A DNA stretch of 64,000 bases from assembly GCF_010119195.1 (NCBI RefSeq), contig NZ_WRXL01000002.1, forward strand, positions 186,001-250,000, given 5' to 3'. Positions within the stretch are counted from its first letter, which is position 1, and every line of letters starts with the position of its first letter. The notes beneath the pieces were generated by a model. The model was not told the origin of the DNA, ran no database searches, and saw only the letters and a list, made by a program, of their open reading frames with translations. Below are positions 2,535-12,935 of this stretch, piece by piece. The position numbers and the translations under genes were made by a program. The DNA is from Haloarcula salina (GTDB lineage Archaea; Halobacteriota; Halobacteria; Halobacteriales; Haloarculaceae).

Positions 2535-3185
2535 CTACGCAATTGTCCCGCTGAGCAGGCCGACGAAGCCGCCGGCCATCGTCTCGTAGCGCCGCTCGGT
2601 CGTCCGATCGGTGAGTCGCTCCCGGGCCGCGGCCACCCGGCGCTCGAACGCGCTGGCGTGAGACTGCCGGGACAGCCGCGTCCCCGACGCTGAGAGCCTG
2701 ACAAACCCCTCGAAGGCGACGTTCAGCGGGGCGGCGAGCGCGCTCGGACTCCGCTGGAAGTTCAGCAGCGCGACCCGTCCACCCGGGCGGACGCTGTCGC
2801 ACCACGCGTCGACGGCGGCCGCGGGGTCCTCGAAGATGCCGGCGACGAACGTCGCGAGCACGGCGTCGACGTCTCTGACCGGTGGTCGGGCGGCGTCGGC
2901 CCGGACGTAGTGGACGCTCTCGCCGGTCCGAGCGGGGCGCTCGCGCGCCCGGTCGAGCATCTCGCGGGTCACGTCGACGCCGATCACTCGGCCTGCCGGC
3001 CCGACGTGCTCGCGGAGGACCGGCACGTTCGCCCCGGTCCCACAGCCCATCTCGACGACGGTGTCGCCGGGTGAGAGCGCGAGCGCGTCCGCGGTCCGCT
3101 CGCGCCAGGACGAGACGCCCGGCGCGCTCGCGAGGCGGTCGTAGACGGCAGCCCACCGGCCGTAGAAGGACTGCGCGTCGGTCAC
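2535..3185 (-). CDS. Class I SAM-dependent methyltransferase
   Basis: A 216-residue protein of the UbiE/COQ5-like methyltransferase superfamily. Motif I is VVEMGCGTGAN (about 43-53), followed by a VIGVDVTREML motif II region and a motif around VDAVLATFVAGI. The start is GTG, overlapping the stop of the upstream ThiN regulator as GTGA, so it is translationally coupled to it. Residues 150-216 hold the helical region usual for lipid- or quinone-type acceptors, but the substrate cannot be named. Co-translation with an HTH/ThiN protein is the only hint at pathway. Confidence 0.88.
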   Translation of the reverse strand: MTDAQSFYGRWAAVYDRLASAPGVSSWRERTADALALSPGDTVVEMGCGTGANVPVLREHVGPAGRVIGVDVTREMLDRARERPARTGESVHYVRADAARPPVRDVDAVLATFVAGIFEDPAAAVDAWCDSVRPGGRVALLNFQRSPSALAAPLNVAFEGFVRLSASGTRLSRQSHASAFERRVAAARERLTDRTTERRYETMAGGFVGLLSGTIA

Positions 3186-4075
3186 AGGATCTCGCGCGCC
3201 GTCTCGGCGACCGACGCGGCGTCGTCGCCGAGCAGGTACACCACCGGCTCGATGCCCATCGCGCCGGTCTGATACAGCGCGTCCGCTCCGGGGTCGTCCG
3301 CCAGCGCGGCCGCGACGGCGGTCTCGACGGTCTCACCGGCGTCGAACTCGACGGCCGTGTAGCCCGCGTCCTCTAGCGCGGCCACGACGGACTCGTCGTA
3401 CCGGACGTTCAGGACCGCGCGAGCGTCGCTGCCGGCGGCCCGCGCCGCGAGCAACAGCGTGGCGACGTGCTCGCTGACGCCGAACTCCGGCTCGGCCGGG
3501 ATGGTCGCCCGCCCCTTCACGTCGAGGATGCGACCGGGGACCGCCGCCACGTCCTCGATGCCCTCCGCGTCGGGGAGGCACTGGACGAGGTTCGACCCGA
3601 CCGCCGGGATGAGCGTCGCGAAGCCGCTCGTGTTCTCCAGGACCGAGAGCCCGCGGCGGACCGACGCGAGCGTCTGCTCGGCCGTCCGGAGCGTCGAATC
3701 GGGGTCGTGGACGGCGAAGTCGTCGAAGGCCGACAGCTCCGGCACGGCGTCCTCGTGCAGTTTTGCCAGCGCGCCGCCCTGTTCGAGTTCGCGGACGAAC
3801 ACCTCGGTCTCGACGAGCGCCTGGACGGGGCTCATCTCGCCCGACGCCAGCCCGTCGGCCAGTCGCTCGACGAGTTCGTTCAGGCCGCGGTGGTCCAGCA
3901 GGTCCGCGTGACGTTCCACGTCGCCGTGGACGTACTTCGAGACGGCGCTCTGGCTGATCCCCAGCAGGTCGGCGACCTCGGACTGGGTCAGCCCGCGCTC
4001 TCTGAGCGCGTCGGCCAGCAGCGAGCGAAACGTCGGCAGGAAGTCGTCGACGACGATCTCCTCGACGAAGCGCAT
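3182..4075 (-). CDS. HTH domain plus ThiN domain transcriptional regulator (ThiR-like)
   Basis: This 297-residue protein has an N-terminal XRE-like helix-turn-helix (about 24-50: LTQSEVADLLGISQSAVSKY) and a C-terminal ThiN-like domain (about 125-297). ThiN-fused HTH proteins of archaea are known as ThiR regulators that sense thiamine phosphate. The other end of the window holds a paralogue at 12012 with the same architecture and a nearly identical N-terminal helix. This copy is not beside recognisable thiamine genes. It follows dcd through three micro-ORFs, and its ATG abuts the stop of the last one (TAGATG). It may sense a different ligand; that is inference. Confidence 0.85.
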   Translation of the reverse strand: MRFVEEIVVDDFLPTFRSLLADALRERGLTQSEVADLLGISQSAVSKYVHGDVERHADLLDHRGLNELVERLADGLASGEMSPVQALVETEVFVRELEQGGALAKLHEDAVPELSAFDDFAVHDPDSTLRTAEQTLASVRRGLSVLENTSGFATLIPAVGSNLVQCLPDAEGIEDVAAVPGRILDVKGRATIPAEPEFGVSEHVATLLLAARAAGSDARAVLNVRYDESVVAALEDAGYTAVEFDAGETVETAVAAALADDPGADALYQTGAMGIEPVVYLLGDDAASVAETAREIL

Positions 4076-4111
4076 CTATCTGGTGCCCCCGCTGCATGGT
4101 GTTCCGCTCAT
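4076..4111 (-). CDS. Micro-ORF 3 (11 residues) in the dcd-ThiN gap
   Basis: ATG at 4111 opens an 11-codon frame (MSGTPCSGGTR) whose TAG stop directly touches the ATG of the ThiN regulator. Its own start overlaps the stop of micro-ORF 2 as ATGA and lies 6 nt after a perfect GGAGG. Its likely role is to carry ribosomes to the regulator rather than to make a functional peptide. This is inferred from the layout. Confidence 0.4.
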   Translation of the reverse strand: MSGTPCSGGTR

Positions 4112-4182
4112 TGGTCGCCTCCGAACTCACTCGCACCCAGCCGAGATTCACGGCCCGCTCGCAGTGCTCCCGGCCCGCTCAT
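4108..4182 (-). CDS. Micro-ORF 2 (24 residues), ends EFGGDQ
   Basis: ATG at 4182 opens a 24-codon frame starting MSGPGALRAG and ending SEFGGDQ. The last codons GAG TTC GGA GGC GAC CAA contain a GGAGG Shine-Dalgarno placed 6 nt before the next ATG, and the stop overlaps that ATG as ATGA. The same ending occurs in dcd and micro-ORF 1, so this piece looks like a duplicated relay cassette. No function as a peptide can be claimed. Confidence 0.42.
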   Translation of the reverse strand: MSGPGALRAGRESRLGASEFGGDQ

Positions 4183-4244
4183 TGGTCGCCTCCGAACTCG
4201 ACCGACTTTCTCGCCGATACCGCGACGCCACGCATTGCGGCCAT
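4179..4244 (-). CDS. Micro-ORF 1 (21 residues), ends EFGGDQ
   Basis: ATG at 4244 opens a 21-codon frame ([14 protein letters not shown] then VEFGGDQ). It begins inside the dcd stop codon (TGATG) and ends by overlapping the start of micro-ORF 2 (ATGA). The GGAGG needed for its start lies in the last codons of dcd, and the GGAGG for the next start lies in its own last codons. It is too short for usual gene finders. Confidence 0.42.
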   Translation of the reverse strand: MAAMRGVAVSARKSVEFGGDQ

Positions 4245-4831
4245 CACTGATCGCCTCCGAACTCGCGATCTCCCTGTATCTTGCTCGCCTGCGGCCCGGT
4301 CTGGCCCTGATACTTCGAGCCTCGCTCGGCCCCGTACGGGCGGTCGGCGGGCGTCTTGAGTTCCGTGAAGGTGAGTTGCGAGATGCGCATGCCGGGCGTG
4401 AGCGCGACCGGTGCGGTGCCGAGGTTCGAGAGTTCGAGCGTGATCTGGCCCTCGTACCCGGGGTCGCATAATCCGGCAGTTGCATGCACCACAATCGCCA
4501 GCCGACCGAGCGACGACCGGCCCTCGACGTGGGCGATGAGGTCGTCGGGGATGGCGACTCGCTCGTGGGTGGTCCCGAGCACGAAGTCGCCCGGGTGGAG
4601 GATGAACTCCCCGTCATCCTCGACGACGGTCTCGTCGACGTAGTCCGCGACCTCGTCCTCGGAGTTCGGGTGGATACAGGGGATGTTGGCGTGCTGGAAC
4701 TCCAGGAACTCCCGGCCCAGCCGCAGGTCGACGCTGGCGGGCTGGATCTGGATGTCCGGGTCGTCGAGCGGCTCGACGACGAGGTCGCCCTCCTCGAGTC
4801 GCCGGAGGATATCCGCGTCTGAGAGTATCAT
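4244..4831 (-). CDS. dcd: dCTP deaminase
   Basis: A 195-residue enzyme of the dUTPase/dCTP deaminase fold. It deaminates dCTP to dUTP to feed dTMP synthesis; some archaeal members also hydrolyse the dUTP. Visible motifs are [11 protein letters not shown] (about 28-38), [20 protein letters not shown] (about 101-120, with the arginine and serines that bind phosphates) and [10 protein letters not shown] with the catalytic glutamate. Length is normal, with an N-terminal MILSDADI typical of the family. It is the first gene of the minus-strand operon leading to the ThiN regulator and methyltransferase. The last six codons double as the ribosome-binding site of the next micro-ORF. Confidence 0.95.
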
Positions 4832-4919
4832 GAGAGGGCCGTTTGCGGGCGCAGGCCTAAACTTCCCGGTTCCCGTCCACCCCGGAGACGGCGAGTTCGG
4901 CGCGGAAGCTATCAGTCCG

Positions 4920-6032
4920 CTATAGCGTCCGTCGCCTGACGACCGTCATACCGACCAGCGTGCCGCCGAACCCGAGCAGCATGAGCGCGGTCAGTCGTTC
5001 CGCCGACGAACTCGGCCCGCTGGACGGCTGCGGGACACTGATGGTCAGCGTTCCGGTCTCGCCGGCGCTGAAGGTCCCGCTGGTAGTCGCGTGCAGTTCC
5101 TGCTGGGGGACTTCGGAGTAGTTGAACGGTCCGGGCATCGTGAACGACGCGAGGTGGAGCGTCCGGTTCGGTCCGTCCTCGGGAACCGTGAACTCTACCG
5201 TTACCTGTGTCGGGTCGTCCGGGTCGTCAAAGGTGAACGACTGCCCGGTGATAGTGACGTTCTTCAACTGACCCGCTCTGTTCTGGTGGAGCACGGACGG
5301 GTTCTGCTCGACGCCGTCCTCGGAGTTCCCCAGCGCGGACATCAGGTCGCGGTCGTTCTCCGCGTAGTACGGCGGTTCGGGTGGCGCTTCGCCCGGTCCG
5401 AAGTCTATCTGCCAGTACACCGGCTCTTCCGGCGTTTCGGTTGGCTCCTCCGGCGTTTCGGTCGGCTCTTCCGGCGTTTCGGTCGGCTCCTCCGGCGTTT
5501 CGGTCGGCTCCTCCGGCGTTTCGGTTGGCTCCTCCGGCGTTTCGGTCGGCGTCGACGGTACCGTACAGAACGCCAGGAAACTGATTCCCTGTTGCGAGGT
5601 GACCACCCCGGTCGTCTGCGGCGGGTCCTGTTCGATGGCCTGGTTTATGGTACTCCCACCGCCGGACTTGACGACCACGACGTCGACGGGGACCTGTGAG
5701 GTCCAGTTGACTTCCGTGGGACCCTCAGCGGGATTCCCGTCATCGTAGGCTGTCTCGTTGAACGTAACGACGTCGTTCGCCCCCTTCTCGAAGACGAAGC
5801 CGTAGTCGCCGTTGGTCGACGCCCAGTTGTACTTCGCCAGCAACTCCTCGCCCGGAGCGCAGGGCTGTGGCGGGCTCCGGTCGTCTGTCTGTACCAGTAG
5901 CGACTGCGTGGACTGGGTCACCTGCGACAGTCCGACCCCGGCGACGGCGACGGTCGATCCGACGACGACCAGCGCGATCGCGGCCGTGACGACGACGAGT
6001 GGGAGGCTGGCGCTTCCCGACCCGTCACTCAT
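4920..6032 (-). CDS. Surface-anchored protein with TETPEEP repeats
   Basis: A 370-residue protein starting [11 protein letters not shown] with one N-terminal hydrophobic segment (about 11-35) and a C-terminal one (about 338-360) followed by RRR. That is the topology of a haloarchaeal cell-surface protein or of a signal-like N-terminus with a C-terminal anchor. The middle carries a TETPEEP heptad repeated about six times (about 162-205), likely a stiff, glycosylatable spacer rich in Thr/Pro/Glu. The start at 6032 is preferred over an upstream ATG at 6155 because the extra 41 residues are basic and precede the hydrophobic segment. Function is not recognised; it stands alone with its own AT-rich upstream region. 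Confidence 0.75.
5419..5547 (-). repeat. 21-bp coding repeat (TETPEEP)
   Basis: A 21-bp unit (plus strand GGCTCCTCCGGCGTTTCGGT and close variants) is repeated about six times in tandem inside the surface-protein gene. The copies differ mainly at one or two third-codon positions, so the array is recent or is kept uniform by slippage. Confidence 0.85.
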
Positions 6033-6477
6033 CGCACGACTCCCTGCCCGGTTTCCGGTCCGGGCGACGCGGCTCCCCAGCAACTGTAGCTCTGATCGAT
6101 AATCTCGACGACATCGAGCATTAGTGACAATGGTGTATGCTTCGTTAGTACCCAATTTACAGCGGTAAGACTACGCTTCGACCATTTTATCAGCCAACAA
6201 GGATTGTGTGATCAAAGTTACAACCCAGATACTCTACTCGGCGGCGGACCGCGGCGGTGCCCATGGGAACGGCGAGAAGGGGTGCGGCTACCGGGTATCG
6301 CGAACGCCGCCGGGCTGGCCGGTCCACTAACCGAAGACCGAGAGAGTCTCGGGAGCAACTGCCTGGGGACGGAGCGCAGTGCCGGGGCCTGCTCGGCCAC
6401 GGCGTATGTACTCTATGGTATGTGCAACCGTGCGGGTACTCCGACGGGCGTTTAAGCCAGGATGTCTATGACAGAAT
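6033..6477. other. Intergenic region without recognised gene
   Basis: About 445 bp lie between the surface-protein gene and pth2. The part 6100-6230 is AT-rich and likely holds the surface-protein promoter. The part 6235-6440 is GC-rich with short open frames in several phases, none with convincing start signals or composition. I compared it mentally with archaeal RNase P RNA and SRP RNA landmarks and saw neither. Confidence 0.5.
6450..6456 (+). promoter_or_regulatory. TATA-like element of pth2
   Basis: GTTTAAG lies about 25 nt before the ATG at 6478, consistent with a leaderless message. Confidence 0.45.
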
Positions 6478-12011: not shown

Positions 12012-12935
12012 ATGACACTGCAGTTGCCGAGCGAGATCGTCGTCGAGCGGTTCCTGCCGACGGCTCGCGCGATGCTCGCGGCGGAACTCGACGCGGAGGG
12101 GTGGACCCAACAGGAGATCGCCGACCAGCTCGGCGTCACGCAGGCCGCGGTCAGCAAGTACAAGAGCGGCGAGGTCTCCGTCGAGGAGCGCTTCCGCGAG
12201 GACCGGCGGATGGTCCAGACCATCGAGCGCATCGCCGCGGGGCTGGCCGCCGACGAGATGGACGAGTATGCAGTGCTCGACGAACTGCTCGCGCTCGTCC
12301 GCGAGTTCGAGGACCGCGGCCCCATCTGTGCGGTCCACGAGGAGGAGATGCCGGCCCTGCAGGGGATGGGCTGTGACCTCTGTGTGCGGGGCACGGACGC
12401 GGCGGTGCTCGAAGAGCGGACCGTCCTCTCCTCGGTTCGGCGGGCCACGCGCCTGCTCTCGGACGCCGCCGTCGTGGTCGCCGCCATCCCGAACGTGGGG
12501 ATGAACGTCGGGATGGCGCTGCCCGGCGCCGACGACGCGCTCGACGTCGCCGCGGTCCCCGGCCGCATCCACGACCTCCGGGGCCGCGTGAACGTCCCGT
12601 CGAACCCGGAGTTCGGAGCCTCCGAGCACGTCGCGGGGACGATTCTGGCCGCGACGGCCGTCGATCCGACGCGCCGGGCCGCGCTCAATCTCGTGACCGA
12701 CGAGGCGGTCCTCGACAGCGCCCGCGAGCGCGGCGTCGACCCCCTGCAGTTCGACGCGGGCTACGAGGACCGGGACGACCGCCTCGAAGCGGCGTTCCGC
12801 GAGCGCGGGGCGGTCCCGCGAGTCATCTATCACGAGGGCGCGTTCGGCGTCGAGCCGATCACCTACGTCTTCGGCGAGACGGCGGTCGACGCGGCGGAGT
12901 TCGCCGTCGAACTGCTGGAAGACGCGGCCGGATAG
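12012..12935 (+). CDS. HTH plus ThiN domain regulator of the TenA locus (ThiR-like)
   Basis: A 307-residue protein with an XRE-like HTH (about 30-56: TQQEIADQLGVTQAAVSKYKSG) and a ThiN-like domain (about 140-305). A Cys cluster (CAVHEEEMPALQGMGCDLCV, about 100-119) between them could bind metal; the paralogue at 3182 lacks it. ThiN-containing regulators are known to control thiamine genes in archaea through thiamine phosphate. Being divergent from tenA across a promoter region with an inverted repeat, it is the obvious candidate regulator of the salvage operon. Confidence 0.88.
   Translation: MTLQLPSEIVVERFLPTARAMLAAELDAEGWTQQEIADQLGVTQAAVSKYKSGEVSVEERFREDRRMVQTIERIAAGLAADEMDEYAVLDELLALVREFEDRGPICAVHEEEMPALQGMGCDLCVRGTDAAVLEERTVLSSVRRATRLLSDAAVVVAAIPNVGMNVGMALPGADDALDVAAVPGRIHDLRGRVNVPSNPEFGASEHVAGTILAATAVDPTRRAALNLVTDEAVLDSARERGVDPLQFDAGYEDRDDRLEAAFRERGAVPRVIYHEGAFGVEPITYVFGETAVDAAEFAVELLEDAAG

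Follow-up and report, generated by a model that had tools for sequence, protein, structure and literature searches.

A probable termination-reinitiation relay through micro-ORFs between dcd and an HTH-ThiN gene in Haloarcula salina and its relatives

In the haloarchaeon Haloarcula salina, the gene for dCTP deaminase (dcd) and the HTH-ThiN gene downstream of it are held apart by a chain of three very small open reading frames, which raises the question of how translation of the second gene could remain tied to that of the first, and of what keeps the intervening tandem repeat open. The window analysed here comprises 64,000 nt of contig NZ_WRXL01000002.1 (positions 186,001 to 250,000), and the features concerned are as follows:

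4858-4864, minus strand: TATA-like AAGTTTA, recognised by sequence, 27-33 nt 5' of the dcd ATG
4244-4831, minus strand: dcd (TIGR02274, E 1.3e-67), with an EFGGDQ terminus whose codons include a Shine-Dalgarno sequence
4246-4244, minus strand: dcd stop codon
4240-4264, minus strand: cassette copy 0, at the dcd end (80% identity; GGAGG at 4254-4258)
4179-4244, minus strand: micro-ORF1, 21 codons, TGATG joint with dcd, EFGGDQ terminus
4175-4199, minus strand: cassette copy 1 (100%; GGAGG at 4189-4193, 6 nt before the ATG)
4108-4182, minus strand: micro-ORF2, 24 codons, ATGA joint, EFGGDQ terminus
4104-4128, minus strand: cassette copy 2 (100%; GGAGG at 4118-4122, 6 nt before the ATG)
4076-4111, minus strand: micro-ORF3, 11 codons (MSGTPCSGGTR), ATGA joint; stop directly adjoining the start of the regulator (TAGATG)
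3182-4075, minus strand: HTH-ThiN gene, presumed regulator; HTH_3 at residues 22-52 (PF01381, E 6e-8), ThiN at 138-294 (PF10120, E 5.6e-52)
2535-3185, minus strand: UbiE-like methyltransferase, GTGA overlap with the HTH-ThiN gene

The order along the minus strand is dcd, the three micro-ORFs, the HTH-ThiN gene and the UbiE-like methyltransferase gene, with stops and starts close at every joint (offsets of -1, +2 and +3 in the window). A first-pass annotation, made from the letters alone, had described the micro-ORFs of 21, 24 and 11 codons with their joints (TGATG, ATGA, ATGA and TAGATG), the GTGA joint between regulator and methyltransferase, the EFGGDQ ending common to dcd and micro-ORFs 1 and 2, a GGAGG 6 nt 5' of the next ATG, and a 25-bp cassette repeated perfectly with a third copy at the dcd end. 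All of this was borne out by the coordinates: the ORFs at 3182-4075 and 2535-3185 overlap, both perfect cassette copies carry the GGAGG, and the pair is 100% identical with 80% for the dcd-end copy. The -4 overlap of methyltransferase and regulator recurs in 30 of the coupled loci in which the methyltransferase gene was found. The AAGTTTA element is presumed to be the promoter for the entire operon, and its spacing from the dcd ATG suggests a leaderless operon transcript. Directly upstream of dcd (4920-6155, minus strand) lies the gene of a predicted protein that has TETPEEP repeats in a row and a hydrophobic segment at its C-terminus.

Termination-reinitiation coupling is known from Haloferax volcanii and E. 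coli, likewise at ATGA and TGATG joints with the Shine-Dalgarno sequence in the upstream coding end (PMC6728339, PMC10666635). In E. coli, the last 15 nt of an upstream gene proved enough for coupling. A Shine-Dalgarno sequence at the end of the upstream ORF is common in coupled pairs without being strictly required, and in Haloferax it helps reinitiation variably (PMC6728339). In Haloferax, a distance of 13-14 nt puts reinitiation far below that of the native overlap, and 22-23 nt leaves next to none (PMC10666635). Given this steep distance dependence, which is common to the known system and the relay proposed here, a bare untranslated gap of 168 nt would be expected to uncouple the two genes, whereas a chain of micro-ORFs carrying dcd-end signals would not.

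On the sequence evidence assembled below, it is very probable that a termination-reinitiation relay maintains translational coupling between dcd and the HTH-ThiN gene and keeps the gap-filling tandem repeat translatable. The operon transcript would presumably start before dcd, and a ribosome finishing dcd would stop just 3' of GGAGGCGAYC, which matches the tail of the 16S rRNA almost perfectly and is contained in the Gly-Gly-Asp codons of dcd. The ribosome would restart at the overlapping ATG, read a micro-ORF of irrelevant peptide, terminate on a further copy of the signal, restart again and finally initiate the regulator. The ancestral dcd-regulator joint was probably a direct overlap, into which 56-74-nt units, delimited by the cassette of the dcd end, would have been gained, duplicated and lost. 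Any unit count would keep the path intact because each unit carries its own start, Shine-Dalgarno sequence and stop, and variants that broke the path would be removed by selection. The sequences themselves show the frames, the turnover of units, the lack of peptide constraint in the most densely sampled units and the promoter contrast; we infer both the translation of the micro-ORFs with reinitiation at each joint and the selection for dcd-regulator coupling. That the amount of regulator would be coupled to dcd, as the first-pass annotation had proposed, would follow by analogy from the coupling measured in Haloferax.

The gap between dcd and the ThiN gene was examined in 114 distinct loci. 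When joints of up to +12 were allowed, 32 of them had abutting or overlapping genes (gap of at most 5 nt, most commonly -4), 47 a linking chain of ORFs whose stops and starts lie close together, and 35 no chain, the last class including three Natrialbaceae loci with chance-like chains (L087, L098 and L116) that were moved there by hand because a TATA-like element is present. In the 31 loci of the Haloarcula type (the named members of the H. salina genus sampled were mostly Haloarcula and Halomicroarcula), gap sizes lie between -1 and 168 nt, and the micro-ORFs number from none, in ten loci, to three. On a dcd+ThiN tree of these loci, a quick tree with many weak forks, the micro-ORF number changes at least 15 times, with at least nine switches between none and some. 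The comparison of relatives that had been suggested as a check hence turned out as anticipated, micro-ORF number changing while the stop/start linkage stays. The type of joint depends on the species (ATGA, TGATG or GTGA, the last where dcd ends in GGDQK, as in L115, or in CAG-TGA, as in L161), and most relay loci have joint offsets of -1, +2, +3 or +4, values not taken from the longest-chain census with its loose limit.

Turnover of units is visible in tandem copies: 56 nt twice in L022, 68 nt twice in L019, 65 nt three times in L161 and 63 nt twice in L120, with five cassettes in L141. At least two successive cassettes occur in 31 of 146 genomes of the family and in 12 of 22 genera. The first-pass annotation had held that the pieces between cassettes are not repeated, which is true of the window, with its one 65-nt and one 71-nt type of body, and fails in the relatives, where whole units are tandemly duplicated. 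Its proposal that a relay grew by copying one ribosome-binding cassette needs a similar amendment; the relay stands, and the duplicating piece is the whole 56-74-nt unit bounded by the cassette rather than the cassette alone.

The continuity of the chain far exceeds what would be expected by chance. When joints were limited to -2 to +4, a complete chain was found in 21 of the 22 Haloarcula-type gaps of 15-450 nt, against 0.72 expected from dinucleotide shuffles of those gaps; the naive probability of about 2e-33 overstates the case because the species share ancestry. Shuffling the H. salina gap itself left a complete chain in 2-4% of cases. A general property of the genome was ruled out as the source of the chain, since only five of 154 other co-directional gaps (3%), drawn from 464 kb of the H. 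salina genome with a simple codon-usage gene caller, contain one, near the shuffle rate. Two observations weigh against the relay here. One locus, L139, with a last gap of 12 nt, lacks both a complete chain and a clear TATA box. In long gaps, moreover, many single-base indels would leave some chain possible (73-94% of cases in L141 and L161), although the share falls to 1-10% in several short gaps.

Unit lengths point the same way. The distance from cassette to cassette is 3n-1 in 38 of 46 units (56, 62, 65, 68, 71 or 74 nt), the spacing that ATGA or TGATG chaining requires, and 3n+1 in none; the other eight comprise seven of 63 nt and a single 84-nt spacing, which is a match in a promoter locus. 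The seven 63-nt units stay open throughout one frame, and this frame leads up to the start of the regulator. In the genus designated g4, the 63-nt units are related to the 62-nt type and read in another frame: an ORF opened at the dcd stop crosses at least one unit and terminates at the start of the regulator (TAGTG in L120 and L138). The frame still reaches that start, which would be why the apparent 1-nt change is tolerated. In L120, L138, L140 and L141 of this genus, one long frame runs across several cassettes in 63-nt units. In the frame used, every one of the 36 unique unit bodies is open, where 24.1 would be expected; of the same bodies, 27 and 20 are open in the other two frames.

It could be argued that all this is a neutral tandem repeat, produced by recombination between direct repeats of 21-25 bp, whose frames are open as a side effect of high GC content and of the copying of a single open unit. 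The perfect or near-perfect tandem copies in L022, L019, L120 and L161 speak for it, as do the repeated gap pieces without a chain in Halorientalis and the fact that about two thirds of GC-rich shuffled bodies are open. Such a reading is nevertheless improbable, for it leaves unexplained why differing unit lengths are all 3n-1, why the chain meets the regulator start in 21 of 22 loci, why non-repeated last micro-ORFs end exactly at that start, and why loss of the chain coincides with a promoter. Neutral repeat turnover surely supplies the variation, without explaining how frame and joints are preserved.

The coincidence with a promoter deserves closer description. Loci without a chain usually carry a TATA-like element (AAGTTATT, AGTTATCC or TTTTTATG) about 25-35 nt 5' of the regulator. 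By a simple AT-octamer criterion, an AT-rich TATA-like octamer precedes the regulator in 22 of the 35 loci without a chain and in 1 of the 47 with a relay (Fisher P 5e-10, uncorrected for relatedness), a contrast that, together with the Shine-Dalgarno contrast, rests on about five switches because the promoter-bearing set is mainly one clade (Natrialbaceae). The 16S rRNA tail GGATCACCTCCT is present in the H. salina genome, and its mean predicted pairing before the regulator amounts to -10.4 kcal/mol in relay loci, -10.9 in direct overlaps and -2.9 where there is no chain, the Shine-Dalgarno sequence before the regulator being mostly missing in the no-chain lineages; at the dcd end the corresponding predictions are about -10.6 kcal/mol (relay) and -5.3 (no chain). 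Among coupled loci, 43 of 67 have GGAGG in the Gly-Gly codons of dcd, and among uncoupled loci 5 of 31, compared with 24 of 873 Gly-Gly pairs in the sample of the H. salina genome. Cassette copies without any frame had been named beforehand as evidence that would count against the relay, and they do occur: Halorientalis loci L071 and L079 contain tandem dcd-tail-like pieces (GAGGAGGCGACCAGGTCTAA) without stop/start linkage. The regulator there has a TATA-like element of its own, the promoter-like TTTTTATG, and these repeats fit a lost need for the relay rather than a refutation.

The repeats might alternatively form a regulatory leader, acting through RNA (hairpins or an attenuator) or through operator sites in the DNA to which the HTH-ThiN protein would bind. 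They sit immediately 5' of the presumed regulator gene, and autoregulation is common among regulators. This is highly unlikely, given that species with zero gap have no space for a leader and that a leader does not predict the frame constraint. Folding of the window RNA was no better than that of shuffles (z +1.35), and a hairpin or attenuator was rejected for lack of stable structure beyond them. The conserved peptide or regulatory codons expected of a leader-peptide attenuator were likewise absent from the nine homologous 65-nt bodies, where variation is flat.

These bodies also bear on whether the micro-ORFs encode functional small peptides, for instance mimics of the dCTP deaminase tail. 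The hexapeptide EFGGDQ is C-terminal on micro-ORFs in many species, and some residues before it are also common. Yet pairwise difference among the nine bodies is 0.222, 0.205 and 0.215 at the first, second and third codon position, as opposed to 0.027, 0.029 and 0.306 in dcd of the same species; the flat pattern, which rests on the 65-nt type only, indicates that the bodies are kept open and the peptide is not kept. In five 68-nt bodies, a small and uneven sample, variation is lowest at the third position, which likewise gives no sign of peptide constraint. Related DNA is moreover read in another frame in genus g4 (L120, L138 and L140), and the ten Haloarcula-type loci without micro-ORFs dispense with any such product, all of which makes a peptide function extremely unlikely. 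The relay reading, in turn, draws together an unbroken chain despite changing unit number, the 3n-1 lengths, the missing peptide constraint and the near mutual exclusion of relay and promoter.

Mycobacterial interspersed repetitive units (MIRUs), as portrayed where PMC12548453 cites Supply et al. 1997, are short repeats beside genes whose ORF is coupled at -4 nt and whose insertion does little harm, and on that description they resemble the present units in that the unit ORF is coupled to a neighbouring gene by an ATGA-type overlap. A dispersed mobile element of this type landing at ATGA joints would share the coupling logic and suit the unexplained origin of the bodies and the patchy presence of units; it is scarcely credible, however, as the cassette (at most one mismatch) occurs in the whole H. 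salina genome at the dcd-ThiN locus and one unrelated gene end only, and a two-unit DNA query against 32 genomes of the genus returned that locus only, besides three weak partial matches of 26-49 nt. With neither cassette nor unit bodies repeated elsewhere in the H. salina genome, a dispersed element is largely refuted for the genus. By the same description MIRUs are interspersed and apparently mobile, whereas the dcd-ThiN units are archaeal, confined to a single locus and bounded by a copy of the upstream gene end, with a unit number that changes across the family.

Two further comparisons define what is new. The two-codon minigene of axe-txe (PMC8708949) is likewise a short ORF acting on the next gene in cis, with frame and distance mattering, but it is single, lies within one operon, is attributed to mRNA stability and does not form a chain linking genes. 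Known coupling joins two real genes in one step, whereas here one to three or more ORFs without conserved peptide are interposed and their number varies by species. No description of the dcd-ThiN gap or of archaeal micro-ORF chains was found in the literature (open-licence papers). The first-pass annotation had known of no described system like this one, which is too broad in view of the -4 nt coupled ORF ascribed to MIRUs in PMC12548453: coupling by overlap and, on that account, harmless insertion through a coupled repeat ORF are known already. A family-wide, single-locus chain derived from the upstream gene, with a changing number of steps, was not found in those papers.

In different relatives, one and the same gene pair is separated by 0, 1, 2 or 3 (or more) reinitiation steps, a natural series by which the archaeal reinitiation efficiency per joint and repeated reinitiation by one ribosome become measurable, and which also bears on how operons survive insertions. 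The ORFs are apparently kept solely for being open and linked, a caution against calling small ORFs "small proteins" from conservation of a reading frame or from footprints. A more speculative extension, itself rather doubtful, is that the chain serves as an evolvable dial, in which each joint would pass on only part of the ribosomes, the step-down that the first-pass annotation had offered beside coupling, and gain or loss of units by recombination would reset the ratio of regulator to dCTP deaminase stepwise between species; if true, the ratio could be changed in discrete steps with both genes and the promoter untouched. Finally, a second HTH-ThiN paralogue, about 41% identical, is located roughly 8 kb away in the window (12027-12917, plus strand), and in many Haloarcula genomes both paralogues are kept within about 7-9 kb of each other.
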